DNA of 21,707 bases from a virus. Below are positions 3,617-21,504 of this stretch, in pieces. The stretch lies in the IMG/VR virus record IMGVR_UViG_3300008267_010143, positions 1 through 21,707 of that record; one strand, written 5' to 3'. The position numbers were made by a program, and so were the translations under genes. The notes below the pieces were generated by a model. That model did not search any database, was not told the DNA's origin, and saw only the letters and a program-made list of their open reading frames with translations. The first letter of the stretch is position 1; each line of letters opens with the position of its first letter.

Positions 3617-4018
3617 ATGGAGTCTCAAGTACTAGATAGTTTATTTGAAACATATCAGAAAGAAATTGCTGAAGATATTAAGGTTGATGAGCTTTCCTTA
3701 AAGGACAAAACTATGCTTGTACCAACTATAAAGCATAAATGGGTCGGTCGTTTAATGATGCATAAAGTACAGCTTAGAAAATTAAATGACATTAAGAAAA
3801 AAGAAATAAAAAGACTAACTAACAATTCTCCTATACCTTTGTCTAAATCTACTTTAGATCAAGCAATAAACGGGGATGAAAGTATTATTAAAATTCAGAA
3901 CAGTATAGAGAGACTTGAAGTTATCATAGAGTACTTAGAAAAAGTAGAAAAACTAACGAGTTCATTGACTTGGGATTGCAAAAATCTTATAGATCTGCAA
4001 AAGCTGGAAACTACGTAA
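3617..4018 (+). CDS. uvsY: UvsY-like recombination mediator
   Basis: 133 aa, against 137 aa for T4 UvsY. UvsY loads the UvsX recombinase onto gp32-coated single-stranded DNA. The protein is all-helical and highly charged: a central W-V-G-R-L-M-M-H-K segment followed by a Lys/Arg-rich helix matches the W-L-N-K-H region of T4 UvsY. Next come a short loop, a D-E-S-I-I-K-I-Q-N-S-I helix and a long C-terminal helix ending in a basic and acidic alternation, as in T4. Identity is low, so the call rests on length, layout and the gene order uvsY-uvsW, which also occurs in T4. Its TAA stop overlaps the uvsW ATG (TAATG). Confidence 0.72.
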   Translation: MESQVLDSLFETYQKEIAEDIKVDELSLKDKTMLVPTIKHKWVGRLMMHKVQLRKLNDIKKKEIKRLTNNSPIPLSKSTLDQAINGDESIIKIQNSIERLEVIIEYLEKVEKLTSSLTWDCKNLIDLQKLETT

Positions 4019-5475: not shown

Positions 5476-5926
5476 AAACGAAGTAAAAAAAGAAAAAAAA
5501 CTTAGCCCGTCTGCCCAGGCTAAGAAGATTTACTATGTAAGCCCGAAAGAGTTTACGGATGAGCTTAGATTGTATTACGAAACTGATATTATTACTGATA
5601 AGCTCGCTTTAATGATAAAAAATATAGCATACGGATTAGCGCATGCTCCTAATTTTATTAATTACACTTTTAAAGAAGAAGCGATAGGAGATTCTTTAAT
5701 TAATATGTTTAATGCAGTTAAAGATAAAAAATACAAATTTGATCGTGGCTTTAACCCGTTTTCATATTTTAATTCTATAGCTTTTAATTGCTGGCGGTCC
5801 CGTATAAAAAAAGAAAAACGTATGAGAGATACATTGGCTGCTTATCAAGAAGAAGTATATAGTGTCATTGGCCCGCAAGTAGGAGTAGATGACCCAACCA
5901 ACCCTGCACAACGTAACGATGTTTAA
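5420..5926 (+). CDS. 55: gp55-like late-transcription sigma factor
   Basis: 168 aa, against 185 in T4. gp55 redirects host RNA polymerase to TATAAATA late promoters. The core resembles T4 gp55: I-A-Y-G-L-A with N-F-x-x-Y-T, a helix with E-E-A-I-G-D-S-L, K-F-D-R-G-F-N-P-F-S-Y-F (T4 has a comparable F-D-E-T-K-Y-K-N-P-H-A-Y), then a C-W-R-S-R-I-K-K-E-K-R basic helix matching the R-I-K-K-E-R-K of T4. The N-terminus is an extra Lys-rich stretch (about 30 residues) encoded where the gene overlaps uvsW. The C-terminus lacks a hydrophobic tail like the sliding-clamp-binding end of T4 gp55. No Shine-Dalgarno sequence precedes ATG 5420, and no later ATG would preserve the core. Confidence 0.85.
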   Translation: MILKKSKLPKKTSTKQVDKNEVKKEKKLSPSAQAKKIYYVSPKEFTDELRLYYETDIITDKLALMIKNIAYGLAHAPNFINYTFKEEAIGDSLINMFNAVKDKKYKFDRGFNPFSYFNSIAFNCWRSRIKKEKRMRDTLAAYQEEVYSVIGPQVGVDDPTNPAQRNDV

Positions 5927-6974
5927 AACTAACACTTCAGAAATTGGTTTATTCTCAGACCCTCATTACGGGGTACACCGTAATAGTGAGATTTGGCATA
6001 AAATTGCTTTGCAACACGCTAAATGGGCTGCAGATGAATTTAAGCAGAGAGGTATAAAAGATATACTTATACCCGGAGATATCTTTCATGATCGTAATGA
6101 TATAGCAGTTAACACATTACACGTTGCTACTGACATTTTTGATATTTTTCGTAATTTTAATATAGTTATTACGGTCGGTAACCATGATGCATATTATAGA
6201 GATAACTCTACGGTAAATTCCGTATCTATTCTCAGAGGTTGGTCTAATATTACAGTTATTGATAAACTTCTTGTAACTAATTTTAAGAATAAAAAAATAG
6301 CATTTTGCCCGTGGGGTCAGGATATTACCGAAGTACCGGAATGTGATTTAATCGTGGGTCATTTCGAAATTAATAGTTTTAAAATGAACGCTTTTAAGGT
6401 CTGTACTGCAGGCGCCAAAGCTTCAGATTTTACGGATAGAGCTAAGCTAACGATATCCGGTCATTTTCATCATAGAGATGAACGAAAATATAAAAACGGT
6501 ACTATTTTATATGTAGGTTCACCTTACCAGCAAGATTGGGGAGACTATAATACAACAAAGGGTTTGTATATACTAGATCTAGAAAGTCTTAAATACGAAT
6601 TCATCGAAAATAATATTTCCCCAAAATATACTAAAATCATTTATTCAGAAGTAGCTTCTGGTAAACTTGCACCAGAACAAATAAAGAATACAATAACTAA
6701 CAATATTGTAAAGCTTATTGTAGATAAGCAACTTGACCCTGCAGTAGCTGATGTGTTAGTGCGTAAGTTAGTATCTTTTAAACCTACTGAACTTACTATA
6801 GATTACGATATAGCCCCGGTTGCAAAGCTCGATGAAGAAGCGGCTAGTACTAAAAGCTTTAGTGTAAGCATAGAAGATTCTATTACAGAGTTTATTGATT
6901 TATTGGATATTAAGAATAAGAATAAAGTTAGAGAGTACGTAACCGAACTCTACCATAAAGCAAGTACAACATGA
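5919..6974 (+). CDS. 47: gp47-like recombination endonuclease subunit (Mre11/SbcD family)
   Basis: 351 aa from ATG 5919, against 339 in T4. With gp46 it forms the Mre11/Rad50-type complex that resects DNA ends for recombination and host DNA breakdown. Phosphoesterase motifs: Asp14-x-His16 (S-D-P-H-Y-G), Asp54 (G-D-I-F-H-D), Asn88-His89-Asp90 (G-N-H-D), His148 (V-G-H-F-E) and His182/His184 (S-G-H-F-H-H). The start is uncertain: ATG 5889 adds ten residues and has AGGAG only 3 nt upstream, but overlaps gene 55 by 38 nt; 5919 overlaps by 8 nt and gives the usual short lead-in to motif I. The stop overlaps the next start (ATGA), joining it directly to the glycan cassette rather than to gene 46. 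Confidence 0.92.
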   Translation: MFKTNTSEIGLFSDPHYGVHRNSEIWHKIALQHAKWAADEFKQRGIKDILIPGDIFHDRNDIAVNTLHVATDIFDIFRNFNIVITVGNHDAYYRDNSTVNSVSILRGWSNITVIDKLLVTNFKNKKIAFCPWGQDITEVPECDLIVGHFEINSFKMNAFKVCTAGAKASDFTDRAKLTISGHFHHRDERKYKNGTILYVGSPYQQDWGDYNTTKGLYILDLESLKYEFIENNISPKYTKIIYSEVASGKLAPEQIKNTITNNIVKLIVDKQLDPAVADVLVRKLVSFKPTELTIDYDIAPVAKLDEEAASTKSFSVSIEDSITEFIDLLDIKNKNKVREYVTELYHKASTT

Positions 6975-7768
6975 AAATTGGAGCTGCAATTATCGCGTGT
7001 GATAGAACTGAGTATACTAACAAGTGTATAGACGGATTGCTTGTTAATAAAAAGGATTTACACGAGTGTATTGTTATTAACGACGGTCAACCGTGGGTTA
7101 ACAGTAAGCCTGTTGAAATTATAAATAACATTCCACCCTATCAAACAGTAGGGGTTGCTAAAAATAATGCAATAAAAGAACTTCTTAAAAGAGGCTGTAA
7201 TCATATATTTTTGATAGAAAATGATATGATTATTAAATCTTCAGATATATTTAAAAAGTATATTGAAGCTGCTGAAAATACTGGTATAACGCATTTGAAT
7301 TTTGGTTACCATGGACCGGCAAATAGAACTCCTGATTATAAAGAGGCAAAGGCTAGATATGTTGTAGAATATCCCGGTGGTATAAAAATAGCATTAAACA
7401 TGCATTCAGTCGGAGCTTTTTCCTATTTTAATAAACGATATATAGACACAGTAGGTATACATGATACGTATTTCAAAAATGCTTGGGAACACGTAGAGCT
7501 ATGTCAGCGTGGTATTAAGAGAGGTATGCTACCCGCTTTCTGGTGGTTTCCTGATATAGAGAGTAGCGATAAGCTCATAGAGGAAATACCTGGTTCAATA
7601 CAAAACAGTTCTATCACACATACTCAAGAATGGACAGATAATATGAAAAAGGGCGCAGAGTATTATAAGAAGCAACACGGCTGGATACCTGTACACACAC
7701 CAGATACCCCGTTAGAATTAGTTTTAAAAAACCTTAAGACTATTTACAAAAAATACAAATGTACGTAA
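6971..7768 (+). CDS. GT2-like (GT-A fold) glycosyltransferase
   Basis: 265 aa. Likely transfers a sugar from a nucleotide donor. The N-terminus has the GT-A nucleotide-binding start (A-A-I-I-A-C-D-R), a V-I-N-D-G-Q strand end, G-V-A-K-N-N-A-I (61-68), and L-I-E-N-D-M at 81-86 in place of the classic D-x-D metal site. A C-terminal N-A-W-E-H-V-E-L motif (around 170) resembles the W-x-x-E-D/H end of galactosyltransferase-type enzymes. It is the first gene of the carbohydrate cassette and overlaps gene 47 by 4 nt (ATGA) and the next gene by 10 nt. No transmembrane segment. Donor and acceptor cannot be read from the sequence. Confidence 0.72.
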   Translation: MKIGAAIIACDRTEYTNKCIDGLLVNKKDLHECIVINDGQPWVNSKPVEIINNIPPYQTVGVAKNNAIKELLKRGCNHIFLIENDMIIKSSDIFKKYIEAAENTGITHLNFGYHGPANRTPDYKEAKARYVVEYPGGIKIALNMHSVGAFSYFNKRYIDTVGIHDTYFKNAWEHVELCQRGIKRGMLPAFWWFPDIESSDKLIEEIPGSIQNSSITHTQEWTDNMKKGAEYYKKQHGWIPVHTPDTPLELVLKNLKTIYKKYKCT

Positions 7769-8565
7769 CTCATTCTAGTGTAGTTCAGACAGGGGAATAC
7801 GGTCTTGGTAATCAAATGTTTCAAATTGCTAGTACTATAGGTATAGCATTAGAGCACGGCGGGTTTCCAACGTTTTTTGGAGAATGGAATAATAATAAAT
7901 ACTTTAAAAACAAATTACATAGACTCCTAACCATCTATAAAGACCCCTTTTACATTTCAGAAGCAAGCTTTGATTATAACCCAATCATATTGCCAAAAAA
8001 TAAAGCTATAATTTGTCTAAACGGTTATCTACAGAGTCACAAATACTTCTCAAAGTCTGAGCAGGTCATAAGAGATACGTTCGAATTTAAGGAAGAGTGT
8101 TTAAAAGAAGTACAAGAATTAAAAGATAGTTTAAAACTAGGAAAGACATGCTCAATAAGCGTGCGTAGAGGAGACTATGTACATCTACAACATATACACT
8201 CTCTGCAGCCTGATACCTACTGGTCGGCCGCGCAAGACATCGTTGAAAGTAAGTCAGAGGTTAACACTTATATTGTTTTCTCAGATGACATTAAATGGTG
8301 TAGAGAAAATCAGCATTTATTTAAGAGACAAGGTAAAAAGCTATTCTTTATGGAAGGTCGCACTCAAATAGACGATTTTATAATGATTACACTTTGCGAT
8401 AATAATATTATTACTAATTCAACGTTTGCTTGGTGGGGCGCATTTCTAAATAAAAATTTTAATAAAACAGTCGTTATGCCTAAGCTTTGGTTTGGCCCTA
8501 CAGGTCCATGGTCTGGACCTTCGAATGCTGATGATTTACACGTAGAAGGGTGGTACAGAGTATGA
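7759..8565 (+). CDS. GT11 family alpha-1,2-fucosyltransferase-like enzyme
   Basis: 268 aa, usual for the family. GT11 enzymes transfer L-fucose, and in some O-antigen clusters the related L-colitose, from GDP donors to galactose-type acceptors. All hallmark motifs are present: G-L-G-N-Q-M-F-Q (residues 15-22), the donor-binding S-V-R-R-G-D-Y (134-140) and N-S-T-F-A-W-W-G-A (220-228). It therefore looks intact and active. The cassette also encodes GDP-fucose/colitose-type enzymes (13094-15143), so donor synthesis and transfer are paired. Its stop overlaps the next start by ATGA. Confidence 0.88.
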   Translation: MYVTHSSVVQTGEYGLGNQMFQIASTIGIALEHGGFPTFFGEWNNNKYFKNKLHRLLTIYKDPFYISEASFDYNPIILPKNKAIICLNGYLQSHKYFSKSEQVIRDTFEFKEECLKEVQELKDSLKLGKTCSISVRRGDYVHLQHIHSLQPDTYWSAAQDIVESKSEVNTYIVFSDDIKWCRENQHLFKRQGKKLFFMEGRTQIDDFIMITLCDNNIITNSTFAWWGAFLNKNFNKTVVMPKLWFGPTGPWSGPSNADDLHVEGWYRV

Positions 8566-9365
8566 TTACCTTATCTCTTAGAGACAAATCATTCAGTCAT
8601 TGTATTTTTAGTAACAACCCTCTACCGCCTACATCTTTTTCAAGACATGTACAGTGGGACAGAGCTACGATTAATAATAATACAATTTATACAGATTATT
8701 GTATAGAGGAAGCTCCAGATAACTCTAGGGTTTGGTTAATTGAACCAAGAGAGCTTATTTCTCATATATATCAAAACGTTGAAAATAATGCTCTTAGGTA
8801 TAGAGCTATTTGGACTCATGATGAAGAGATCTTAAAGAAACACTCTAATGCGGTTTTCGTACCTCTGGGGGGGTGTTGGATAAAAAAAGAAGATCAGAAA
8901 ATATACGATAAAACAGAGATGTTTTCTATTATTGCTTCAAGTAAAAGATATTTACCTGGGCATCAAATGCGTCATGATGTTGTGGTAGCGGCAGAAAATA
9001 AAATAGATACGTACGGTAACGGTTATACTCATATACCCTATAAACTGGATGGCTTAAAAGACTATAGATACCATTTTGCTATAGAAAATACTAAAAAAAA
9101 TTTTTGGTTTACCGAAAAATTAATAGATTGCTTAGTAACCGGTACTATGCCGATTTACTGGGGTTGTCCTTCTATTTCTAAATTCTTTAACACTGATGGA
9201 TTTATTTTATTCAACGATTTAGTAGATTTAAAGGAACAGCTAAAAAAATGTACCCCTGAATACTATGAGAATAAACTACCGGCTATAAAGGAGAACTTTA
9301 ATTTAGCACAGAAGTATATTTTAGCAGAAGATTGGATCTACGAAAATGATATACATATCTCATAG
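8562..9365 (+). CDS. GT10-like (alpha-1,3/4-fucosyltransferase type) glycosyltransferase
   Basis: 267 aa from ATG 8562, which makes an ATGA overlap with the upstream stop; a GTG at 8550 in the same frame is less likely. The C-terminal half carries the GT10 donor-binding signature Y-H-F-A-I-E-N-T followed by F-W-F-T-E-K-L (170-187), then C-L-V-T-G-T-M-P-I-Y-W-G-C-P. GT10 enzymes use GDP-fucose or related GDP sugars. The N-terminal acceptor domain is divergent, with R-E-L-I-S-H and I-W-T-H-D-E stretches. Together with the GT11 gene it gives two GDP-deoxyhexose-type transferases side by side. The sugar specificity is inferred from the family. Confidence 0.8.
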   Translation: MITLSLRDKSFSHCIFSNNPLPPTSFSRHVQWDRATINNNTIYTDYCIEEAPDNSRVWLIEPRELISHIYQNVENNALRYRAIWTHDEEILKKHSNAVFVPLGGCWIKKEDQKIYDKTEMFSIIASSKRYLPGHQMRHDVVVAAENKIDTYGNGYTHIPYKLDGLKDYRYHFAIENTKKNFWFTEKLIDCLVTGTMPIYWGCPSISKFFNTDGFILFNDLVDLKEQLKKCTPEYYENKLPAIKENFNLAQKYILAEDWIYENDIHIS

Positions 9366-9816
9366 AGGCAATCTAGAAGGCAAAAGCTCTCAAGAAAATC
9401 ATCCTGATCAAGTTAAATACTGTCTAGACCAGGGGTTCGATGTAGAAGTAGATGTATGGTTCAATGAAGGGGAGTTTTACCTAGGGCATGATTACGGGCA
9501 ATATAAAATAGAATTCGAATTTCTACTAAACAAAAAGCTCTGGGTACATTGTAAAAATGTCGCAGCTTTAGCAGCTTTAAAGGGTTCGTTTTATAATATA
9601 AATTGTTTTTTTATTGATAAAGACGACTGTGTTTTAACTAGTAAAGGAGATATTTGGTTAAGTCCTACTTACAAAAAATCCTTTAAACACGCAATATGTG
9701 TAATGCCAGAAGATTCTAGATGGGAATACCCAAGAGAAGAACTTTTAGACTTTAGTGGCATTTGCACTGATAATGTATACTATTATACTCGTTATGTTGC
9801 TAATCTTAGATGTTGA
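9346..9816 (+). CDS. GDPD-like (glycerophosphodiester phosphodiesterase superfamily) protein
   Basis: 156 aa, shorter than the roughly 240-aa typical phosphodiesterases. The N-terminal catalytic residues of the TIM-barrel family are all visible: His6-Arg7-Gly8, Glu17-Asn18, Glu34-x-Asp36 in V-E-V-D-V-W, and His48-Asp49 in L-G-H-D. A W-V-H-C-K strand and a G-I-C-T-D end follow. Compact relatives of this kind occur in polysaccharide gene clusters, but their substrate is not clear to me; cleavage of a glycerophosphate or sugar-phosphate diester is plausible. It overlaps the genes on both sides by about 20 nt. Confidence 0.68.
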   Translation: MIYISHRGNLEGKSSQENHPDQVKYCLDQGFDVEVDVWFNEGEFYLGHDYGQYKIEFEFLLNKKLWVHCKNVAALAALKGSFYNINCFFIDKDDCVLTSKGDIWLSPTYKKSFKHAICVMPEDSRWEYPREELLDFSGICTDNVYYYTRYVANLRC

Positions 9817-10315
9817 CGGAGTACTCACGGACGGTAAAAAGTACTATGATAATACTGGTAAAGTATTACTAAAAACATTTTGCGATAGAGATTTTACCGC
9901 AATTAAAAAAATTAAAGCAGCTGGCTGGTCAGTAGTGTTTTTGTCAGGGGACAAGAATATAAACGAAAGTATTGCTAAGAATAGAAACATAGATTTCTAT
10001 TGCAATAGAAATAACAATATAATGATTGACAAAGTTACTTTTATCGAATTGTTTGAGCAAAAGTATAATTGTGATAGAGATAATATGGTCTACATGGGAG
10101 ATGATATTTTTGATATCAATATATTAAAAAATGTAGGTTACGCGTTCTGCCCAGAAGATGCAGCGTTTGAAGTTAAAAAAGTAGCAAAAGTAATTAACGC
10201 TAAAGGCGGGGAATGCTGCGTTGATAAACTCTACGAGACCTTATTACATTTACAATTATTGGAAGCACCTACTTTAGATGAAGTACTACTTTTAGATCAA
10301 AATGAACGCTTTTGA
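9794..10315 (+). CDS. KdsC-like HAD-family sugar phosphatase
   Basis: 173 aa from ATG 9794, close to the 170-190 aa of KdsC-type phosphatases. HAD motifs: Asp6-x-Asp8-Gly-V-L-T-D-G (the nucleophile loop, with the KdsC-typical V-L-T-D-G), Ser51-Gly, Lys80, and G-D-D (102-104) with Asp107. KdsC-type enzymes remove phosphate from KDO-8-phosphate or related acidic or heptose sugar phosphates. No KDO-8-P synthase is seen here, so the substrate may be another phosphorylated sugar made by the neighbouring kinase/isomerase genes. A GTG at 9755 would add 13 hydrophobic residues but is deep inside the upstream gene and unlikely. Confidence 0.8.
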   Translation: MLLILDVDGVLTDGKKYYDNTGKVLLKTFCDRDFTAIKKIKAAGWSVVFLSGDKNINESIAKNRNIDFYCNRNNNIMIDKVTFIELFEQKYNCDRDNMVYMGDDIFDINILKNVGYAFCPEDAAFEVKKVAKVINAKGGECCVDKLYETLLHLQLLEAPTLDEVLLLDQNERF

Positions 10316-10979
10316 TATAGCCATTTACGGTCATTTAAGTTTTGATAACATCTACGAAGGCTTTAATTACAAGTCTTCAGTAGGCTGCATGGGTAATGTA
10401 TGGAACCATCTAAAATACATAAATTCAGATTTAAAAATAAAGTTAGAGCCGACCGATATAGGGGAATCTTTAATAATAGTAGATGTAGAGCATAATAAAC
10501 GCGCTAGTATATCCCGTTTATCTTTAAAAACTAACAAACCCACTATACATAGCGCTACTATCAACCATATAATGTATTTAAATGAACTATCCGATTGTAG
10601 TTTTATTAAAGATATAAAAGGATATATAGTAGCAGATACGTGCAATGGAAAGACTTTACAGCTTGATTCCAACGTATTAAAGGATATTGATTTGCTGCTG
10701 ATATCTGAAGAAGATTTAACTGAAAAAATATCTGATATCGTTTCTTTAGTAAGAGGTCATGTTTTAGTGCATTACCCAGCTGGGAGTACTTTATATTGCA
10801 AAAACAGTCGCCAAGCTCGTTTTGAAGCAGAATTTGTGCCGAACATAAATGTATTAGGCGCGGGAGATAAATTGGTATCATACATTCTCGCAGGACTGGA
10901 CAATACTCGAGGTATAGATAAAGTAATACAGCAGGCTCATAATAGCTTGACTGATTACTTTAAGAATGAAAAAATATAA
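10302..10979 (+). CDS. PfkB/ribokinase-family sugar kinase, short form
   Basis: 225 aa, well below the roughly 300 aa of full PfkB kinases. The N-terminus (D-I-A-I-Y-G-H-L-S-F-D-N) and S-V-G-C-M-G-N-V-W-N (26-35) match the substrate-binding start of the family; the catalytic signature L-G-A-G-D (185-189) ends the nucleotide-binding part. The region between is compressed and diverged, so either a minimal kinase or a decayed one is possible. Placed between a sugar phosphatase and a nucleotidyltransferase-isomerase, it would fit phosphorylation of a sugar phosphate, as HldE-type kinases do in heptose activation. It overlaps both neighbours by 14 nt. Confidence 0.7.
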   Translation: MNAFDIAIYGHLSFDNIYEGFNYKSSVGCMGNVWNHLKYINSDLKIKLEPTDIGESLIIVDVEHNKRASISRLSLKTNKPTIHSATINHIMYLNELSDCSFIKDIKGYIVADTCNGKTLQLDSNVLKDIDLLLISEEDLTEKISDIVSLVRGHVLVHYPAGSTLYCKNSRQARFEAEFVPNINVLGAGDKLVSYILAGLDNTRGIDKVIQQAHNSLTDYFKNEKI

Positions 10980-12135
10980 TCTTTTAGTCCCCCTTGCTGG
11001 TAGAGGTCAACGCTTTGTCGATGAAGGGTATGTAGTACCCAAGTATATGATTACAGCCCGAGATAAACACCTTATCGACTGGGCTCTGAGTTCTATAGAC
11101 ACTCACGAATGTAATCTTATTTTTTGTCTACGCCAAGATCATATTAATAATTTTGGGGTAGATGATGTGTTTCGTAAAAAATTCGGTAACGATATTACAA
11201 TCGTACCTATAGACAAAATTACTGATGGAAGCGTATCTACGTGTTTATTAGCTGAAAAATATATTGATAGCGATCTCCCGTTGTATATCTATACAGTGGA
11301 TGTGCACTTTCAAAGAAAGTTCGTACCTCAGTCTTTAGAGGGTAAATCAGGCCTGGTATTAACTTTTAAAAGTAATAACCCTGCATATAGTTACGTCAAA
11401 ACCGGCAAAAACGGTATAGCTACATTAACCGCAGAGAAAGAAGTCATTAGTAATAATGCTTGTGTAGGGGTTTATGGATTTGCAACTGGTAAGCTATTTG
11501 TTGAGTACGCGCAAAAAATGATTGCTATGAATTTGCGTACTCGCAATGAATTTTATATAACACCTCTGTATAATTTAATGATACAAGATGCTCATCAAAT
11601 TAACATACAGGAAGTAGAGCGTATGTATATAATGGGTACCCCTGAAGAGTATAAATTTTTTACTACAAGAGTGTTGAATCCTTTTGCAGATAAGCCTATT
11701 GCTTTAGTAAGTGATCATAGCGGTTACGAACTTAAAGAACAAGCTAAAAACGTAATTACCGCTCACGGTTTGAAATATATTGATTTAGGGTGTTACACAA
11801 ATAAAGACTGTGATCAGTTCGATTACGTATCTCAAGCAATATCTTTTATTAAAAACGGAACCTGCGGCTACGCGCTAGGCTTTTGCTGTACCGGTCAAGC
11901 TGTTAACATGGCTGCTAACAAAACTAATGGTATTAGAGCTGCTTTAATATATGACGCTTATAGCGCAGAGTATGCTATAAAGCATAACTGTAGCAATTTC
12001 TTTTCTATTCCTTCAAGGTCTACTACAGTTTCGGATCTTTCTCAATATATTAGTTTGTGGTTAGCTACTGATTTCGAAGGAGGTCGGCATTGCGCGAGAA
12101 TACAAAAAATAGAAAACAGCTATGGACGTCTATAA
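10966..12135 (+). CDS. Fusion: sugar nucleotidyltransferase plus RpiB-type sugar-phosphate isomerase
   Basis: 389 aa in two domains. Residues 1-240 are a nucleotidyltransferase with the pyrophosphorylase loop P-L-A-G-R-G-Q-R-F (9-17) and P-K (25-26), as in HddC/GlmU-type enzymes that join a sugar-1-phosphate to an NTP. Residues 245-389 are an RpiB/LacAB isomerase: S-D-H-S-G-Y-E-L-K (Asp250, His251), F-C-C-T-G (catalytic-type Cys307, with Cys308 where RpiB has Gly), A-A-N-K, G-I-R-A-A-L, and the F-E-G-G-R-H ending. Both active sites look intact. Isomerase and activating enzyme are thus made as one chain, at the end of a phosphatase-kinase-nucleotidyltransferase run. The join is within one continuous frame. 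The sugar is not identifiable; pentose or heptose phosphates are candidates. Confidence 0.8.
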   Translation: MKKYNLLVPLAGRGQRFVDEGYVVPKYMITARDKHLIDWALSSIDTHECNLIFCLRQDHINNFGVDDVFRKKFGNDITIVPIDKITDGSVSTCLLAEKYIDSDLPLYIYTVDVHFQRKFVPQSLEGKSGLVLTFKSNNPAYSYVKTGKNGIATLTAEKEVISNNACVGVYGFATGKLFVEYAQKMIAMNLRTRNEFYITPLYNLMIQDAHQINIQEVERMYIMGTPEEYKFFTTRVLNPFADKPIALVSDHSGYELKEQAKNVITAHGLKYIDLGCYTNKDCDQFDYVSQAISFIKNGTCGYALGFCCTGQAVNMAANKTNGIRAALIYDAYSAEYAIKHNCSNFFSIPSRSTTVSDLSQYISLWLATDFEGGRHCARIQKIENSYGRL

Positions 12136-12442
12136 TATTAAAAATTTTCATAATGGGTGGTTTATAGGTAATTTTGATAAGTCTATTTTTAAAAATCCTT
12201 TTTTTGAAGTAGCACATCATAAATTAATTAAAGGGTATACTGGACCTCTTCATTATCATAAAATTGCAGAAGAAGTGACCTATATAGTATCAGGCCGTCT
12301 TATTGCAGATGGAAAAGAGCTTACACCAGGAGATATGTTTGTTTACCACCCTAAAGAAGTATCTAATGTAACATTTTTAGAAGACACTGATTTAATTGTA
12401 ATTAAATGGCCCTCTGTACCTACCGATAAATATCTTGTTTAA
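12122..12442 (+). CDS. Cupin-domain protein
   Basis: 106 aa, single cupin barrel. Metal-binding motif 1 is H-Y-H-x3/4-E (His44, His46, Glu50 or Glu51) leading into V-T-Y-I-V-S-G-R-L; motif 2 is P-G-D-M-F-V-Y-H (His76). Small cupins in sugar gene clusters act as isomerases, epimerases or unassigned accessory proteins. Nothing here decides which, although there is no obvious match to the larger RmlC/FdtA types. It overlaps the fusion gene by 14 nt and is followed by one of the few gaps in the cassette (5 nt). Confidence 0.75.
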   Translation: MDVYNIKNFHNGWFIGNFDKSIFKNPFFEVAHHKLIKGYTGPLHYHKIAEEVTYIVSGRLIADGKELTPGDMFVYHPKEVSNVTFLEDTDLIVIKWPSVPTDKYLV

Positions 12443-12447
12443 ACAGA

Positions 12448-13104
12448 ATGAGAAAGGCTATCTCGTTTTCTGGGCAAAGTAGATTTATTAAAGAGGGATA
12501 TATCACGCTTAAACGTAATTTACCCGACTTTGAGTCTTATGATGTCTTTATACATACCTGGGAGGATAGTTTAAATAAAGACTGTACTCTTTATAACCCT
12601 AAAAAAATACTAATTGAACCTCAAAAAAATGTAGTACCTTCAACTGTTAAAGAGTACGATAGTGCCCACTTTGTTCATTTTAGTATGTTTTATACTATGA
12701 AAGAAAGCCTCAGACTTAAATCTGAGTACGAAAAAGAAAATAATTTTAAATATGATTTAGTAATAAGAACACGCTTTGATATAGGACTTGAAACAAAATT
12801 TAACCCTGAAAGTTATAATCTCTTAGAAGGTGTGTATTCGCCAGATGTTTGTGCTAATCCTGCTGTTATTTCTGATTGGTTAAATTTTTCTACCTCTACA
12901 AATATTGATTTATATCAAGGCATATACGATAATATTATTAGTTACTGTAAAAAAGGAGTCAATATTGTTTCCGGGGAAGAAATTATTACTCATATGCTTA
13001 AAAGTAACAACATACCTATTAAAAAGATACCATGTGAGTTATTTTTATTAAGAGATCGCAATAAACATCACACCCTTTCTCCCTACTGGAAATATGCAAA
13101 CTAA
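12448..13104 (+). CDS. Putative glycosyltransferase-like protein (R-x-R-F-D-I motif)
   Basis: 218 aa. Not a firmly recognised family. It begins like small sugar-transfer proteins of capsule clusters (A-I-S-F-S-G-Q-S-R), has Y-D-V-F-I-H-T-W (31-38), then Y-D-L-V-I-R-T-R-F-D-I (102-112), where the Arg/Asp-rich strand end resembles the metal or donor site of GT-A enzymes. A later S-G-E-E-I-I-T-H segment and a C-terminal L-L-R-D-R-N-K follow. The setting between cupin and GDP-sugar reductase supports a carbohydrate role. It overlaps the next gene by 11 nt. Confidence 0.55.
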   Translation: MRKAISFSGQSRFIKEGYITLKRNLPDFESYDVFIHTWEDSLNKDCTLYNPKKILIEPQKNVVPSTVKEYDSAHFVHFSMFYTMKESLRLKSEYEKENNFKYDLVIRTRFDIGLETKFNPESYNLLEGVYSPDVCANPAVISDWLNFSTSTNIDLYQGIYDNIISYCKKGVNIVSGEEIITHMLKSNNIPIKKIPCELFLLRDRNKHHTLSPYWKYAN

Positions 13105-14020
13105 AATCTTAGTAACAGGTGGTACAGGTATGGTCGGCCGCCATTTGAAAGATCTAGGCTTACAAGCTATATATTCAAACAGTAAGATGTGTGACTTGAC
13201 AGATTCTAGTCAAGTAAAGGAATTTTTTGAAACAGTAAGACCTAATATAGTTGTACATTTAGCTGCTAAAGTCGGTGGTATAATGGATAATATTAAAAAC
13301 CCTGTTGGTTTTTTTGAAGACAATATCCTTATAAACACGAATGTAGTAAAGTATGCTAAGCAATACGGCTGCACACGTTTTATAGGTATATTAAGTACTT
13401 GTATATACCCTGACAAACTTGATGACAGTCTTTATCCGCTTAAAGAAGACACTTTACATATCGGGCCTCCAACTCAAACTAATTTTTCTTATGGTTACGC
13501 AAAACGATGCTTAGCAGTACAGTTAGAGTGTTATAGAAAACAACACTCATCGTTTTATAGTAGTATTATACCGTGTAATTTATATTCCGAACATGACCAT
13601 TTTTCAGGAGATAAAGCCCATTTTGTTACAAGCTTAATCCGTAAAATTTATGAAGCAAAAACAACAAATGCTTCTTCTATACAGCTGTTTGGCACCGGAA
13701 CCCCGCTAAGGCAGTTCATGTATGCTGAAGACTTAGCTAGAGCAATTATAGATTACATCTATAAAGGGGTGTACGCAGATTTAAACATAGCAACAGACGA
13801 AGTGTATACAATTAAACAAATAGCGGAAATAGCCTTAGATGCATGCGATGCAAAGCACTTAACTATAAATTGGGATACTAGCAAACCTGACGGTCAGTAC
13901 AGAAAAGACGTATCTGATGCGATATTTAAAAAACATTTTCCTGAGTTTAAATATACTACCTTAAAAGATGGCATAAAAAGGACCTACGATAATTATTCAT
14001 ATGGCCTGGCTACTAAATGA
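13094..14020 (+). CDS. GDP-L-fucose synthase (Fcl/WcaG) or ColC-like epimerase-reductase
   Basis: 308 aa, an extended SDR. NAD(P)-binding G-G-T-G-M-V-G (9-15), then H-L-A-A-K-V-G-G-I-M (55-64). Catalytic residues of GDP-fucose synthase are conserved: Ser101, Cys103 (S-T-C-I-Y-P), Tyr133-x3-Lys137, and the epimerisation His167 (N-L-Y-S-E-H-D-H-F). The G-T-G-T-P-L-R-Q-F-M-Y segment is also typical. The enzyme epimerises and reduces GDP-4-keto-6-deoxy-D-mannose to GDP-L-fucose; the homologous ColC does the same on the 3-deoxy intermediate to give GDP-L-colitose. The next gene is ColD-like, which favours the colitose option. No GDP-mannose 4,6-dehydratase is visible in the window. Confidence 0.88.
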   Translation: MQTKILVTGGTGMVGRHLKDLGLQAIYSNSKMCDLTDSSQVKEFFETVRPNIVVHLAAKVGGIMDNIKNPVGFFEDNILINTNVVKYAKQYGCTRFIGILSTCIYPDKLDDSLYPLKEDTLHIGPPTQTNFSYGYAKRCLAVQLECYRKQHSSFYSSIIPCNLYSEHDHFSGDKAHFVTSLIRKIYEAKTTNASSIQLFGTGTPLRQFMYAEDLARAIIDYIYKGVYADLNIATDEVYTIKQIAEIALDACDAKHLTINWDTSKPDGQYRKDVSDAIFKKHFPEFKYTTLKDGIKRTYDNYSYGLATK

Positions 14021-15143
14021 ATCTAATTTTACTTGGAAAGATCGCTTAAAGATTTGTTCGTTTTTTCTTAAAAAAGAAAAATTCTGGACAATGACAGATG
14101 AAGTTGCCAAGTTTGAAAAAAAAATGGCTCAGTATACTGGTACGAAGTATGCTGTATTTGTTTCGAACGGATCAACTGCAAATACATTACTCGCTATGTA
14201 TCTCAAGGACCAGCTAAGAGGTTCAATAAAAGATACTGTAGTATTTCCGTCTACTACCTGGATAACGTCTGTATCTCCATTTTTACGAGAGGGTTTCAAA
14301 CCGCAATTTATAGATATTACATTAGACTCTTTAAGTTTAGATTTAGATAAATTAGAGAATTATCTAAAGGATAATAGACATAGAGTAGCCTGTGTTTTCG
14401 TTACGTCTCTGTTAGGATTTAGCCCTAACATAGATAGGTTAAAATATATCAGAAAAAAATACCAGGTAAAAATAATGTTAGATAATTGCGAAAGTACATT
14501 TACAAGATGGAACGGGCGTAATATTTCTTCATATTTTACTTCTACAACTAGTACGTACTTCGGACATTTACTTCAAAGCGTAGAGGGCGGTTTCATTTTT
14601 ACAAATAGTCAGTACGAGTATGAGTATTTTATTATGGCTCGTAATCACGGCATGACACGAGGATTAACGAATAATAAAGAATATTACCTTAACAAACAAG
14701 TAGACTCTCGTTTTGATTTCAATATATTAGGTAACAATTTTAGAAATACTAATATTAACGCTTTCATAGGGCAGTTAGATTTTGAAAGAATTTCTGAATA
14801 TACAGATAAGAGATGTCTACTGTACGATATATTTTACGGTTTTTGTCAGGAAAGCGCAACAGTCACTACATTTTCTAGAAAGTTAGAAGACGTACCGTTT
14901 AGCCTGCCGTTTATACTTCCTACAGTACAAGAAAAACATAGAGTTATAGAATATTGTAAAGAAAACAATATTGAGACCCGACCTATAGTTTCTGGTAATC
15001 TTTTACGGCAAACTTGTTTAAAGGGCTATGCGAACCCTGAAGATTTTGAAAACAGTGACATAGTACATCATAACGGCTTATATGTTGGCTTACACAGTAA
15101 GGTAAAGGAGCAGGATATAAAGAAACTAGCGAGAGTTCTATGA
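14001..15143 (+). CDS. DegT/DnrJ-family PLP enzyme, ColD-like sugar 3-dehydratase
   Basis: 380 aa, whole-family length. The fold signature is clear: S-N-G-S-T-A-N near 54-60, V-F-P-S-T-T-W-I-T, Asp161 in M-L-D-N-C-E (contacts the PLP ring nitrogen), and V-E-G-G-F-I-F-T-N. At the position of the PLP-linking lysine the sequence reads F-G-H-L-L-Q-S-V-E-G-G, with His189 instead of Lys (codon CAT, 14565-14567). Aminotransferases need that Lys; ColD, the GDP-4-keto-6-deoxy-D-mannose 3-dehydratase, has His188 there and removes the C3 hydroxyl. The following R-N-H-G-M-T-R-G loop also fits. Directly downstream of an Fcl/ColC-like gene, this points to 3,6-dideoxy sugar synthesis. The dehydratase assignment is inferred from the His and context. 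Confidence 0.82.
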   Translation: MAWLLNESNFTWKDRLKICSFFLKKEKFWTMTDEVAKFEKKMAQYTGTKYAVFVSNGSTANTLLAMYLKDQLRGSIKDTVVFPSTTWITSVSPFLREGFKPQFIDITLDSLSLDLDKLENYLKDNRHRVACVFVTSLLGFSPNIDRLKYIRKKYQVKIMLDNCESTFTRWNGRNISSYFTSTTSTYFGHLLQSVEGGFIFTNSQYEYEYFIMARNHGMTRGLTNNKEYYLNKQVDSRFDFNILGNNFRNTNINAFIGQLDFERISEYTDKRCLLYDIFYGFCQESATVTTFSRKLEDVPFSLPFILPTVQEKHRVIEYCKENNIETRPIVSGNLLRQTCLKGYANPEDFENSDIVHHNGLYVGLHSKVKEQDIKKLARVL

Positions 15144-15901
15144 AGCACGATCTTAAAGATATTACCTTTACAATACCAGTTAGAATAGATTCAAAAGATC
15201 GTTTTGACAATATTCACTATATTATAGACTATCTTACAGCAAATTTTGATACAAATATAATTGTATTTGAAAATGGACCTAAACAAAATTTAAATTTAGA
15301 TAAGTCTATTAAATATGTTTTTACAGAAAACACCGGTTCTTTTCACCGTACTAAATATCTCAATGATATGGCGAAACTCGCTGAAACTAAGTTTATTGCT
15401 AATTATGACTGCGATGTTACATTCCCTGTAAAGCAAGTACTAAAAGCGTATAATTTATTACAAGAAAATGCGGTGGATTTTATTTACCCGTACGATGGTC
15501 TTTTTGTTAATATAGTTAGAGCAACACTGGATAGTGAAATTACTAATTTTAATATGGATCCTGCAGGCTTAAACCCTGAGCGTTATCAGAATTTCGGGCG
15601 CAATTCTATGGGCGGTGCTTTATTCTGGAACAAAAAGTCTTTCGTTGAAGGAGGAATGGAAAATGAAAAATTTGTTTCGTGGGGGTGTGAAGACTGGGAA
15701 AGATTTCATAGATTTACTAAGCTAGGATACGGGGTCGGCAGAGTAAAAGGCCCTTTATACCATATAAGTCATTCCAGAACTCAAGAAAGTAACGAAACCA
15801 ATCCCTTTTATCAGCAAAATTTAATAGAATTTCAAAAAGTAGATAAGATGGATAGCAACGCCTTAAAAGAATACATTAAGACCTGGCCTTGGCTTTCGTG
15901 A
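15140..15901 (+). CDS. GT-A glycosyltransferase, galactosyltransferase (GT7 C-terminal) type
   Basis: 253 aa. N-terminal F-T-I-P-V-R-I-D-S-x-x-R (10-21) and F-E-N-G strand, D-x-D metal site as Asp90-Cys-Asp92 (N-Y-D-C-D-V), and the galactosyltransferase C-terminal signature: G-G-A-L-F-W, G-G-M-E-N-E, then W-G-C-E-D-W-E-R followed by a C-terminal Y-H-I-S-H. The W-G-x-E-D motif carries the acceptor-activating acid in this group. Likely transfers Gal/GalNAc or a related sugar. It is the last cassette gene: it overlaps the ColD-like gene by ATGA and is followed by a 21-nt gap before gene 46. Confidence 0.8.
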   Translation: MKHDLKDITFTIPVRIDSKDRFDNIHYIIDYLTANFDTNIIVFENGPKQNLNLDKSIKYVFTENTGSFHRTKYLNDMAKLAETKFIANYDCDVTFPVKQVLKAYNLLQENAVDFIYPYDGLFVNIVRATLDSEITNFNMDPAGLNPERYQNFGRNSMGGALFWNKKSFVEGGMENEKFVSWGCEDWERFHRFTKLGYGVGRVKGPLYHISHSRTQESNETNPFYQQNLIEFQKVDKMDSNALKEYIKTWPWLS

Positions 15902-15922: not shown

Positions 15923-17746
15923 ATGCGGTATATTTATTTTAAGAGCTTAAAAGCTACTAATTTTCTCTCTATAGGTAAAAAACCTGTTGAATTAGCTTTT
16001 AAGCCTGGCCTTAACATTATTACAGGTAAGAATTACGATAAGTCTGATAGAGCTAATGGGGTAGGTAAGTCTACTATTGCAGATGCTATACATTTTGCTT
16101 TGTATGGTAACACAATCAGAGAGCTTAAAAAAGAAAACATAGTTAACGATCAGGCCCCTGATAGTCTTTGTGAAGTAGAGCTTCATTTCACTCTACAGCA
16201 AAATAAGACTAAGAAAGAATGCAAAGTGGTACGCTCAATTAATCCTACTAAGTGTTTTTTCTTTGTTGATGGAGAAGACGTAACCCGTTCAGGGGTACCT
16301 CAAACTACTGAATATATAGTTGATACTATCAAAACGTCGTCTGAAGTATTTCAGAATAGCGTTGTGATGACTATTAATAATACTGTACCGTTTATGGCAC
16401 AGAAAAAAGTTGAAAAGCGTAAGTTTATTGAGGGTATTCTAGGTCTAGAAGTGTTTAGCAATATGTTGCTTTTAGCGCGTCAAGAGTATAATGAAACTAA
16501 GAAAGAAGGAGAAATACAAACCGGTAAATTTGAAGAAATAAACCGATCCTTACAAGATAACGTAAAACAGCAAGAAGTTTACGAAGAGAATAAGAAAAAG
16601 AGAATAATTACATTAGAAACCCGGCAGAAGGATAATGAAAAAGAGCTTAACTCTCTTCAAATTAAAGTAGATAAATTTGATCCAGTTGATTCTGTTAGTC
16701 AGAAAAAAATAGAAGATGATATTAAAACTTTAAAAGAGGCCGAAAAAGCAGCTTCTAAAAAAGTAGCTGAAATAGTTAAAATAATTACCGAATCAAATGC
16801 TAATATTCGATTTAACGCTGAACGAGTTAAAAAACTTAAAAAAGTAGATAGTAAGTGTCCGCATTGCGGTAAGGATCTAGCAGAATCTGCTAATAAACAG
16901 TATGACAAGGATAAATCTGATTGCGAAAAAGAAATTGAAAAGCATAAATGTGTTGTTGAAAAGCAAACACCTTTGCATGAGAAAGCTCTAGCTAATCAGG
17001 AGAAAATAACTAAAGCTATACCTACTTTTGAAAAAAAGCTTAATGAGTTTGCTTTACGCAAAAAAGAAATCGAAAATATTAATAATCGTATTACTCAGTT
17101 AGAAGTTTGGCAGAAGCAAATAGGTATTGATATACGCCAACTCAACAATGAGTCTAATAGCTATCAAGAGACTATTAATGATATTAGTAAGAGACTTAAT
17201 GAATCTAAAGCACTAATCGAACAACTTCAAGAAAAAATAGATATTATTGAGAATGCTAAATTAATTGTATCGGAAGAGGGGGTTAAGTCTTATATAGTTA
17301 AAAAGATTATAGAAAACTTTAATACTAGATTAACTTTTTATCTTAAAAAACTTGAAAGTAATAGTATTGTTAAGTTTAATGAATATTTTGAAGAAACAAT
17401 TACAAATGAACGCGGAAGAGAGTGTAGCTATTTTAGCTTTTCCGGGGCAGAGCGTAAAGCAATAGATCTTGCAATGCTTTTTACATTTCAAGATATCCGA
17501 CGAGCACAAGCGGCGGTATGGTTAAATCTCTCTATGTTCGATGAACTTATTGATTCATCTCTAGACGAGAAAGGTATTGAGTTAGTACTTGATATTCTTA
17601 AAGAACGGGTAGATAACTATAGTGAATCAATTTATATTATTTCCCACCGTAAAGAGAGTAAGAAGTACTGCATAGGCGGGGAAATAGTGTACTTGGAAAA
17701 GAAAAACGGCATTACTACAAGAACAACTAATTATGATCTATCCTAA
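15923..17746 (+). CDS. 46: gp46-like recombination endonuclease subunit (Rad50/SbcC family ATPase)
   Basis: 607 aa, against 560 in T4. The ATPase partner of gp47. Walker A is N-G-V-G-K-S-T (45-51), preceded by a longer loop than in T4 (I-T-G-K-N-Y-D-K-S-D). Two long coiled coils flank a zinc hook C-P-H-C at 312-315. The ABC signature region F-S-F-S-G-A-E-R-K lies near 504-512, Walker B ends in F-D-E-L (Asp540, Glu541), and the switch His575 is in I-I-S-H-R. The start at 15923 gives the normal M-R-Y-I-Y-F-K-S-L lead-in. It is 8.9 kb from gene 47 because of the carbohydrate cassette. Its 3' end overlaps the next gene by 14 nt. Confidence 0.93.
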   Translation: MRYIYFKSLKATNFLSIGKKPVELAFKPGLNIITGKNYDKSDRANGVGKSTIADAIHFALYGNTIRELKKENIVNDQAPDSLCEVELHFTLQQNKTKKECKVVRSINPTKCFFFVDGEDVTRSGVPQTTEYIVDTIKTSSEVFQNSVVMTINNTVPFMAQKKVEKRKFIEGILGLEVFSNMLLLARQEYNETKKEGEIQTGKFEEINRSLQDNVKQQEVYEENKKKRIITLETRQKDNEKELNSLQIKVDKFDPVDSVSQKKIEDDIKTLKEAEKAASKKVAEIVKIITESNANIRFNAERVKKLKKVDSKCPHCGKDLAESANKQYDKDKSDCEKEIEKHKCVVEKQTPLHEKALANQEKITKAIPTFEKKLNEFALRKKEIENINNRITQLEVWQKQIGIDIRQLNNESNSYQETINDISKRLNESKALIEQLQEKIDIIENAKLIVSEEGVKSYIVKKIIENFNTRLTFYLKKLESNSIVKFNEYFEETITNERGRECSYFSFSGAERKAIDLAMLFTFQDIRRAQAAVWLNLSMFDELIDSSLDEKGIELVLDILKERVDNYSESIYIISHRKESKKYCIGGEIVYLEKKNGITTRTTNYDLS

Positions 17747-18939: not shown

Positions 18940-21504
18940 ATGTACCGTAACTTATACTATAGTTCCAGGGAAGGGATTGTAAATCTTTTTACTTGGGATG
19001 AAAACGGTAATCGCATCGTTAAAAAGATGCCGTTTCAACCGTATTTTTATATTGAGACGAACACCGATAATGCAGACGGGCTTTCTATTTTTAATACAAA
19101 GCTTAAGAAGAAAGTGTTCAGAAACGGTTATGAGCGTAATCAAGCCGCGCAAGACGGCGCCATTAAGAGACTCTACCATAATATTCAGGCCGAACAACAG
19201 TTTCTTATAGATAAATTTAAAGATACGTATGATAAGCCTGAATTTATACAATATCCATTAAGGATAAACTTTTTAGATATTGAAGTCTTTTCCCCAGACG
19301 AGTTTCCGGAGGCTAAGGATGCTAAACATCCTATTAACCTTATAACTATATATGATAACCTTAGTAGTAAGTTTTATACTTGGGGTTGTAAGCCATATAC
19401 CCCTAAAAAAGATAACGTAGAGTATACTGAATGCACTACTGAGGTCGATATGCTCAATAAGTTCTTAGAGCACCTTGAAAAGGATAACTATCCAGATATT
19501 CTTACAGGGTGGAACACTGACTTTTTTGATTTTCCTTATCTTATTAATCGTATAACTAATCTTTTAGGAGAAGATTCAGCTAAACGGCTTTCTCCACTTA
19601 AAAGTCTCTGGTGCCGTAAAGGTATTTTTGTGAAGGGTCAGGAATTAGATCGTTGGTATATACATGGGGTAGCAGCAATGGATTATCTTGAAGTTTATAA
19701 AGGTTTTGCGCGCGGGCTACTTGAATCTTATGCCTTAAATTTTGTAGCCCAGCACGAGCTTGGAGAAGGTAAACTTGCAATTAACGCTACTAATCTCGCC
19801 ACCCTATCAGACTCAGATTGGAATAATTTTGTTGAGTACAATATTCAAGACGTCGACCTACTTGTTCGTATGGAGAACAAGTTACAGTTCTTTAAGATTA
19901 TTAGAATGTTAGCACATAAAGGCCTAACAAGTTTTGAATCTGCTTTAGGTAAAGTTTCGATTGTAACTGGCTGTGTTGCTCTGGAGGCATCTAAGCATGG
20001 TCTAATTATACCTACATTTGTAGACGGACCCACACGAGAAGCTATTGAAGGAGGTTATGTAAGAGACCCTGAACGCGGGTTAAAAACTGCAGTTGTGAGC
20101 TATGACGCTAACTCACTGTATCCTAACACTATCATTACTCTTAATATTTCTCCTGAAACTAAAGTAGGTAAGATTATTAGTAAAACAGATGATTCTGTAA
20201 CAGTACTATTGACAAGTGGTAAAGACTATAAACTACCTATTGAAAAATTTAATAAATTTGCTGAGGCCGAAAAATTAGCTATATCGAAAGCTGGGGTTCT
20301 GTATACTCAGAAGAAAAAAGGGGTAGTACCGTCATTAATTGACGGTCTCTATGCTGAGCGTGTTGCTAATAAGAATCAATATGTAGAATATAAGAAAAAA
20401 CTCAGTAAGTTAACACCAGATACAGATGAATACCGGAATTGCAAAGCCAGCATGGAGCGTGCGGATACTATCCAGTATGTCATCAAAATTTTGCTTAATT
20501 CTATTTACGGGGTTTTCGCTAATAAGTTTAGCCCTATATGCGATAGCGATCATGCTGGTAGCATTACTCTCACTGGCCAGTCAGTCGTTAAGCAGGCGAG
20601 TGTCATCCTTGATGAATATGCTAGATCTAGATACGGTATTGGGTCTTCTCTTACTATTTACGGCGATACTGACAGTACTCATATCACTATACAGCCTATC
20701 CTTGATAAGATTAAGTTAGATATATTTGAAAATAACAAGGTTACTGCTGCAGGTTTAGAGTTAATTGATAAAGATATGGGTACCTATCTTAATAATGAAA
20801 TTAAGAAATGGTCAGCATCTGAATTTAAGTCTGTAGACCCTCGTTACTTTTTTAAGAGAGAATCAATATGTCAGGTGGGGGTATATCTAGAAAAGAAACG
20901 GTACATTATTCATGTACTCAATGATGAAGGAGCAGATATAAATAAATTTAAGTACGTAGGGGTAGAGATTGCTCGTTCTACCACGCCTAAAAAAGCTAAG
21001 GAACTAATTAAAAAAGTTATTGAAACTTCTTTAGTATTACAAGATCAGAACAAAGCTAATAACTTGTATAAGGACACTTATGAAAGCTTTAAAAAGCTAA
21101 AGGTAGACGATATAGCTATTAGAGGTGGTTTAAGCGACCTAGAAAAATATGATAGTAAGTGTGAATATCCTTTTAAAATCGCTAAAGGTACTCCCAATCA
21201 CGTAAAAGGAGCAATCTACTTTAACCATCTTCTTAAGAAGATGGGACTAGAGACAAAGTACGAAAAGATTACATCTGGAGGCAAGGTAAAGAAAATATAT
21301 GTTGCACCGAACAAGTATCAAATTGATACTCTCTGCTATACCGGTTCATACCCGGAAGAATTTACTGATTTTCAAGTCGATTATATTGAAATGTTTGATA
21401 CACTTATCAAACCACCAATCGAAGCAGTTTATGAATCTATCGGTTGGCGTTTGCCCGATGTCGTTAACGAAACAGAAACTGACTTATTCTCTCTCTTTTC
21501 ATGA
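18940..21504 (+). CDS. 43: gp43-like family B DNA polymerase
   Basis: 854 aa, against 898 in T4. Replicative polymerase with 3'-5' exonuclease. Exo I is L-D-I-E-V-F (Asp113, Glu115, close to Asp112/Glu114 of T4), Exo II G-W-N-T-D-F-F-D-F-P-Y, Exo III Y-N-I-Q-D-V-D. Polymerase motif A is Y-D-A-N-S-L-Y-P (Asp389), motif B K-I-L-L-N-S-I-Y-G, and motif C Y-G-D-T-D-S (Asp576, Asp578). The C-terminus D-L-F-S-L-F-S resembles the hydrophobic sliding-clamp-binding tail of T4-type polymerases. All catalytic residues are present and there is no intein or split. The start at 18940 is supported by the conserved N-terminal Y-S-S-R-E-G and F-x-P-Y-F-Y-I-E. The stop overlaps the next start (ATGA). Confidence 0.96.
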   Translation: MYRNLYYSSREGIVNLFTWDENGNRIVKKMPFQPYFYIETNTDNADGLSIFNTKLKKKVFRNGYERNQAAQDGAIKRLYHNIQAEQQFLIDKFKDTYDKPEFIQYPLRINFLDIEVFSPDEFPEAKDAKHPINLITIYDNLSSKFYTWGCKPYTPKKDNVEYTECTTEVDMLNKFLEHLEKDNYPDILTGWNTDFFDFPYLINRITNLLGEDSAKRLSPLKSLWCRKGIFVKGQELDRWYIHGVAAMDYLEVYKGFARGLLESYALNFVAQHELGEGKLAINATNLATLSDSDWNNFVEYNIQDVDLLVRMENKLQFFKIIRMLAHKGLTSFESALGKVSIVTGCVALEASKHGLIIPTFVDGPTREAIEGGYVRDPERGLKTAVVSYDANSLYPNTIITLNISPETKVGKIISKTDDSVTVLLTSGKDYKLPIEKFNKFAEAEKLAISKAGVLYTQKKKGVVPSLIDGLYAERVANKNQYVEYKKKLSKLTPDTDEYRNCKASMERADTIQYVIKILLNSIYGVFANKFSPICDSDHAGSITLTGQSVVKQASVILDEYARSRYGIGSSLTIYGDTDSTHITIQPILDKIKLDIFENNKVTAAGLELIDKDMGTYLNNEIKKWSASEFKSVDPRYFFKRESICQVGVYLEKKRYIIHVLNDEGADINKFKYVGVEIARSTTPKKAKELIKKVIETSLVLQDQNKANNLYKDTYESFKKLKVDDIAIRGGLSDLEKYDSKCEYPFKIAKGTPNHVKGAIYFNHLLKKMGLETKYEKITSGGKVKKIYVAPNKYQIDTLCYTGSYPEEFTDFQVDYIEMFDTLIKPPIEAVYESIGWRLPDVVNETETDLFSLFS

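Follow-up and report, generated by a model that had tools for sequence, protein, structure and literature searches.

A ColD-like histidine enzyme beside a GDP-fucose-synthase homologue in a T4-like phage fragment: probable late steps of a GDP-L-colitose-type pathway

ColD, the GDP-4-keto-6-deoxy-D-mannose 3-dehydratase of Escherichia coli O55 (PDB entries 2gms, 2gmu, 2r0t, 3b8x and 3gr9) and Yersinia pseudotuberculosis IVA, has a DegT/aspartate aminotransferase fold in which a histidine takes the place of the lysine that binds pyridoxal 5'-phosphate (PLP). The histidine serves as both base and acid, and pyridoxamine 5'-phosphate (PMP) is regenerated with glutamate and no iron-sulphur cluster, unlike in E1 and SpnQ (PMC8987622). 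Here we describe a viral relative of ColD encoded at positions 14001-15143 of IMG/VR record IMGVR_UViG_3300008267_010143, and a homologue of GDP-L-fucose synthase (Fcl) encoded beside it at 13094-14020. The window analysed is the entire 21,707-base record, a linear fragment with no end repeats. We consider it likely that the two genes form the late part of a pathway of the GDP-L-colitose type, that is, one leading to an activated 3-deoxy-fucose.

Two further bacterial systems are close in chemistry. RfbH/E1 (CDP-4-keto-6-deoxy-D-glucose-3-dehydrase) shares both the exchange of lysine for histidine and the deoxygenation of C3, but it needs a [2Fe-2S] cluster and the E3 reductase, acts on a CDP-linked substrate and belongs to a separate clade. 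The C3-dehydratase of Campylobacter jejuni HS:5/HS:11 applies ColD-type chemistry to a GDP-4-keto sugar, as proposed here; it differs in being 62-67% identical to ColD, in its heptose substrate and in its heptose dehydratase partner (PMC10440746). Cyanophage gmd and fcl have been described as GDP-fucose genes (PMC9602691), and a viral survey includes gmd, fcl and ascC/ddhC/rfbH in its list of auxiliary genes (PMC10653327); in the open-access literature searched, we found no description of a colitose pathway encoded by a phage.

Both reading frames of the window are open and intact (308 amino acids for 13094-14020 and 380 for 14001-15143) and overlap by 20 bases. The features on which the argument turns are as follows.

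14001..15143, + strand: ColD-like nucleotide-sugar C3-dehydratase of the DegT fold (PDB ColD 2gms at 6e-39, AlphaFold2, Foldseek, tree and signature residues)
14565..14567, + strand: codon of His189 (in GHLLQSVEGG), the predicted catalytic base where lysine would stand, by alignment with ColD His188
13094..14020, + strand: C5-epimerase/C4-reductase of the GDP-L-fucose-synthase family, probable GDP-colitose synthase by context (NF047922, 4b8w, tree and approximately unbiased (AU) test)

A histidine enzyme related to ColD

The 14001-15143 protein matches the DegT_DnrJ_EryC1 family (PF01041, 1.1e-46), and its His189 aligns on ColD His188, where the PLP lysine is expected. Of 185 aligned rows (the window protein, viral and bacterial sequences and two reference chains), 181 have histidine in this column and four have lysine, the latter being other, distant DegT paralogues within fetched bacterial stretches. 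With such a majority, His189 is neither a chance substitution nor a sequencing error, and the exchange claimed by an earlier, sequence-only reading of the window is borne out. The residue is kept in a 90% identical virus (L002), in a viral group at 63% identity (L009) and in Hydromonas bacteria at 53-54% identity. The only lysines between positions 165 and 240 are residues 226 and 232, both outside the Schiff-base position.

The best PDB sequence matches are four ColD sequences at 133-137 bits (137 for 2gms), followed by E1/RfbH (74 and 71 bits), a putative NDP-4-keto-6-deoxyglucose-3-dehydratase (69 bits) and lysine aminotransferases (65 bits or less). The best NCBIfam model is RfbH, at 120.6 bits far under its cut-off of 423. 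An AlphaFold2 model made with 51 native relatives has a predicted local distance difference test score (pLDDT) of 94; when it was compared to the PDB with Foldseek, ranks 1-12 were all ColD chains (template modelling score 0.90-0.92), with E1 at rank 14 and GDP-perosamine synthase at rank 15. Agreement at the ColD signature positions is complete (13 of 13): W87, C163, E164, H189, H216, R220, F238, R248, E325, R327, P328, G332 and N333 correspond, in that order, to ColD W88, C161, E162, H188, H215, R219, F240, R250, E329, R331, P332, G336 and N337. E1 has F, C, D, H, W, R, Y, K, G, R, L, G and N at these columns, lysine enzymes have mainly F/Y, A/S, Q/H and K at the first four, and one or both groups differ at most of the 13. 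A column comparison with E1 showed that the [2Fe-2S] cysteine loop is absent from the viral protein.

An IQ-TREE phylogeny of 65 rows, including 11 lysine homologues from fetched bacterial genomes and stretches, splits histidine from lysine proteins at 100/100, placing the window protein apart from every lysine aminotransferase; an origin among the latter was accordingly rejected, and the grouping that the sequence-only reading had set out as its refutation did not appear. The earliest branch comprises E1 together with an E1-like phage group (96/91). The window protein belongs to a viral clade of 30 rows (100/99), which then joins the 15-row bacterial ColD clade (100/100) at 99/90, with E1 outside; a larger quick tree gave the same groups, with a support of 89 for the joint branch. 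The window protein groups with L002, L009, the viral L013 and L014, and Hydromonas. We conclude that it is a close cousin of ColD lying outside the characterised ColD clade. The sequence-only reading had proposed a ColD-type enzyme, and sequence, fold, signature residues and tree all back this; by homology, its catalytic mechanism would be that of ColD. Identity with E1/RfbH was rejected on the missing cysteines and the tree.

Relatives of the protein were found in 57 phage records and more than 300 viral stretches. A scan of bacterial genomes for close relatives with the single window protein returned none; a profile scan did find relatives. Among bacterial relatives, those of Hydromonas (L088 and L089) alone exceed 50% identity. 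In L089, housekeeping genes flank the relative and two glycan-type genes, and gmd lies elsewhere in the genome; gene exchange with phages, and with it a hint at the host group, is possible.

Other histidine enzymes were seen alongside these. A second phage clade, sister to E1/RfbH (96/91) and marked by CSFYPAHEITT or CSFYPAHHITT, comprises L014:9447-10760, L016:8103-9413, L006:5833-7131 and L007:8971-10290; because a ColD-like gene is close by in L014 and L016, two distinct C3-dehydratases may coexist in one phage. A divergent group (ACSTYVAHTLTTGVGG, with neither the EGG nor the GN motif) adjoins gmd and Fcl in L155, L157-L161 and L165, metagenome-assembled genomes of Lachnospiraceae, Oscillospiraceae and Clostridia, and is possibly an independent variant; in the quick tree, L155 forms a long branch on the lysine side. 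In L003:4854-9152 a histidine DegT gene lies just 3' of a UvsX/RecA-like gene, the latter seemingly split by an intein and endonuclease reading frames (by eye); the DegT gene has no sugar neighbours and its product reads SGFLGYQ in place of SGNLLRQ.

The reductase partner and its gene neighbourhoods

The 13094-14020 protein matches the Epimerase family (PF01370, 2.8e-49) and the GDP-fucose synthase model NF047922 (7.2e-59; 199.7 bits, under the strict cut-off of 500). Its closest solved relatives are GDP-L-fucose synthases, the human enzyme 4b8w at 220 bits and E. coli Fcl at about 130 bits; unlike them, it is directly coupled to a C3-dehydratase gene. It shares with ColC, the GDP-L-colitose synthase, a short-chain dehydrogenase/reductase fold and an intact catalytic set (Ser101, Cys103, Tyr133, Lys137 and His176, equivalent to S107, C109, Y136, K140 and H179 of E. 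coli Fcl). Because the Fcl and ColC groups both carry this set, it cannot separate them. The position of Arg187 in E. coli Fcl, occupied mostly by Lys among ColC-clade proteins, was tried as a discriminator and dropped, the human enzyme also aligning a Lys.

The tree of the partners shows three separate placements: a single clade of ColC proteins whose genes adjoin bacterial colD (99), the cyanophage partners with the E. coli Fcl group (98), and the window partner with the human-type GDP-fucose synthases (98-99). At least three Fcl lineages are therefore paired with histidine DegT enzymes, which we read as recruitment of the same epimerase/reductase chemistry. The sequence-only reading had matched the partner to ColC. 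The homology to Fcl and the intact residues stand; the residues are not diagnostic, however, and the protein lies outside the canonical ColC clade. Sharing the C5-epimerase/C4-reductase chemistry, it may well do the job of ColC.

Neighbourhoods were counted in 49 distinct viral loci, after removal of near-copies and of loci too near contig ends, and in 60 bacterial ColD-like loci. Since these were found with the DegT profile only, their linkage to gmd, fcl and glycosyltransferases is independent evidence. Fcl is adjacent in 35 viral and 44 bacterial loci; gmd is present in 36 and 48, glycosyltransferase family 11 (GT11) in 30 and 21, and family 10 (GT10) in 18 and 12, respectively. Two cultured cyanophages have these genes in a row: that of S-CAM7 (KU686212) reads gmd, fcl, 'putative CDP-4-keto-6-deoxy-D-glucose-3-dehydrase' and GT11; that of ACG-2014f (NC_047712) reads two nucleotide-sugar epimerases, an 'aminotransferase' and a glycosyltransferase that matches the window GT11. 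The first ACG-2014f epimerase is a clear GDP-mannose 4,6-dehydratase of the hexose type (492 bits, versus 121 for GDP-heptose dehydratase), and the cyanophage DegT proteins also carry the histidine (SFYFGHHMTTIEGG). These T4-like phages thus resemble the window in their adjacent Fcl and histidine DegT genes and GT11-type transferase. They differ in having gmd, in a DegT protein about 32-35% identical to that of the window, in an Fcl of the E. coli type and in the position of the cassette, which lies near tail fibre genes rather than between gp47 and gp46. The sequence-only reading had expected such a pathway to be unusual for a phage. This is not so: many cyanophages and other aquatic viruses carry a histidine DegT gene with Fcl, often accompanied by gmd, and the record of one cultured cyanophage, S-CAM7, already annotates a 3-dehydrase.

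The surrounding cassette

The sugar genes form an all-plus-strand run embedded among T4-like genes. Besides the two genes above, the run contains the following.

6971..7768, + strand: phage glycosyltransferase-like protein (phrog_2456, 1.3e-18), also kept in L002 and L009
7759..8565, + strand: GT11, fucosyl/colitosyl-type transferase (PF01531, 1.5e-23; phrog_2644)
8550..9365, + strand: GT10, fucosyltransferase C-terminal family (PF00852, 1.4e-7)
9755..12442, + strand: second, separable sugar-nucleotide module (KdsC-type HAD phosphatase, PfkB-like protein, nucleotidyltransferase-RpiB fusion, cupin)
15140..15901, + strand: putative glycosyltransferase directly 3' of the dehydratase (phrog_15655, of unknown function, 4e-58; weak match to galactosyltransferase phrog_1721, 4e-5)

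On the 5' side lie a helicase (3970-5475), a small sigma-like reading frame (5420-5926) and a gp47-like nuclease (5889-6974), and on the 3' side a gp46-like ATPase (15923-17746), all named by eye, and a B-type DNA polymerase (18940-21504; about 30% identity to T4-like and cyanophage polymerases by tblastn). The G+C content of the cassette (0.30-0.35) equals that of its flanks (0.33-0.35) and so bears no mark of recent foreign DNA. No strong transmembrane stretch was seen in the cassette proteins; their sole hydrophobic peak falls where the HAD gene has a doubtful upstream start. Nor was a flippase, a polymerase or a ligase seen in the cassette. A small protein at 9346-9816 (phrog_34507, unknown function) has a glycerophosphodiesterase-like start (HRG...ENHP, by eye); homologues occur in the histidine DegT loci L059, L078, L081 and L085.

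The GT11 and GT10 genes, to which the sequence-only reading had appealed, are both real. They do not discriminate fucose from colitose, since the O-antigen transferase WbgN and human FUT2 each transfer L-colitose and L-fucose, as well as L-galactose (PMC12409901).

The 9755-12442 module recurs in the same order in Synechococcus phage Bellamy (gp098-gp095; 41, 37, 52 and 60% identity), where a weak homologue of 12448-13104 comes next; nowhere does the 204,930-base Bellamy genome contain a histidine DegT gene. L009 has the Fcl-DegT-GT10-GT11 set without the module. As Bellamy has the one and L009 the other, the two are separate building blocks. The PfkB-like protein (10302-10979) shows a GAGD motif by eye and has no family match, and its predicted model (pLDDT 43) is too poor to use; the nucleotidyltransferase-RpiB fusion corresponds to phrog_3980, of unknown function. 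The 9755-12442 genes constitute a conserved phage sugar-nucleotide module.

Pathway, rival explanations and meaning

The activity, substrate, product and acceptor that we infer would be as follows. GDP-mannose 4,6-dehydratase, from the host or from an unsequenced part of the phage genome, would supply GDP-4-keto-6-deoxy-D-mannose. The 14001-15143 enzyme, its PMP regenerated from glutamate, would form a Schiff base with C4 of this substrate; His189 would take a proton from PMP, the C3 hydroxyl would leave and hydrolysis would yield GDP-4-keto-3,6-dideoxymannose and ammonia. The 13094-14020 enzyme would then epimerise C5 and reduce C4 with NADPH, giving GDP-L-colitose (3-deoxy-L-fucose) or a near isomer, which GT11, GT10 and the neighbouring transferases may attach to a glycan on the host surface or to a glycoprotein of the virion. 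Because no membrane protein, flippase, polymerase or ligase is evident in the cassette, the sugar is more likely attached to an acceptor already present, either a glycan of the host at the inner membrane or a protein of the phage, than incorporated into a newly made O antigen; the closeness of tail-fibre genes to the cassette in S-CAM7 and ACG-2014f slightly favours virion glycosylation.

What the window shares with the ColD system is the fold, the histidine, the lack of an iron-sulphur loop, the 13 signature positions and the linkage to fcl/colC and GT11. Several points weigh on the other side. The dehydratase is only about 28% identical to ColD, has Gly and Leu where ColD has Ser187 and His189, and is sister to the characterised clade, not nested in it, its own clade being mostly viral. 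A tree constrained to place the window partner and its two companions in the ColC clade is worse by 92 log units (p-AU 0.003), and this, with its human-type placement, led us to reject ColC orthology. Moreover gmd is not adjacent as it is with ColD: as the sequence-only reading had noted, there is none in the window, and none in the L002 record or in the 119.8-kb L009 record. Because it is missing even from the last, the host probably supplies GDP-4-keto-6-deoxymannose; the L009 record may be incomplete. Finally, the histidine enzyme has no Fcl neighbour in L003, L013-L018 and Hydromonas (in L013, L014 and L016-L018 gmd lies elsewhere in the record and Fcl was not found); the final sugar may therefore differ between members.

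The placement of the partner also suits a rival view, in which the two genes serve two branches, the Fcl homologue making GDP-L-fucose for GT10 and GT11, which are fucosyltransferase families, and the ColD-like enzyme feeding a different reductase and sugar; that some relatives combine the histidine enzyme with gmd and no Fcl agrees with this. We nevertheless think it unlikely: the pair overlaps and is adjacent in most of the distinct viral loci, three Fcl subfamilies are each linked to the histidine enzyme, as fits one shared pathway, and no second hexose reductase was seen in the window. A route to a GDP-3,6-dideoxy-heptose, the same chemistry acting on GDP-heptose made by the HAD, kinase, nucleotidyltransferase and isomerase genes of the window, is much harder to credit. 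The C. jejuni homologue of ColD does act on GDP-6-deoxy-4-keto-heptose (PMC10440746), and the window has a phosphatase, a possible kinase, a nucleotidyltransferase and an isomerase. Yet the isomerase is of the RpiB type with no match to GmhA, the gmd beside the related cyanophage enzyme is of the GDP-mannose type, and the module, being separable from the pair, was dropped as evidence for this route. The 13094-14020 protein, too, scores 220 bits with hexose enzymes and 69-109 with the 'GDP-L-fucose synthase' entries 7anh, 8ewu and 7anc, which we take to be C. jejuni heptose enzymes.

Two other activities concern the DegT enzyme itself. It shares its Pfam family with sugar aminotransferases and has GDP-perosamine synthase as a fold neighbour, so that it might transaminate, for instance to GDP-perosamine, with another residue in place of lysine. 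This is most improbable: the Schiff-base position has no lysine, all 13 lysine homologues fall outside its group, ColD and E1 are without transferase activity, and E1 H220K managed only a non-catalytic round (reviewed in PMC8987622). Slightest of all is the chance of an E1/RfbH-type CDP-sugar 3-dehydrase of the paratose/abequose/tyvelose path, which the S-CAM7 annotation would suggest and with which the top NCBIfam model and the histidine agree; the model score is far too low, the cysteine loop is missing, ColD is ahead of E1 by 63 bits and also ranks higher by fold, E1 stands outside the joint viral and ColD clade, and genes for CDP-glucose dehydratase and the E3 reductase were not found in the window.

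A GDP-L-colitose-type pathway thus remains our preferred reading. The 14001-15143 enzyme is real and well identified at family level, its biochemical kind is known and it is not rare among aquatic phages; what is new is the viral clade and the non-orthologous Fcl partner. More tentatively, a virus-borne C3-dehydratase family distinct from bacterial ColD may have repeatedly joined unrelated Fcl lineages, T4-like phages making their own GDP-3,6-dideoxy sugars for virion glycosylation or for recoating the host against rival phages, and members without Fcl making different dideoxy sugars, perhaps ones not yet described. Annotations of phage sugar genes usually read 'aminotransferase', 'nucleotide-sugar epimerase' or lipopolysaccharide (LPS) gene. 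The exchange of lysine for histidine, together with linked gmd, fcl and GT11, turns many such annotations into a specific, testable dideoxy-sugar pathway, and what phage 'LPS genes' build would become directly testable.

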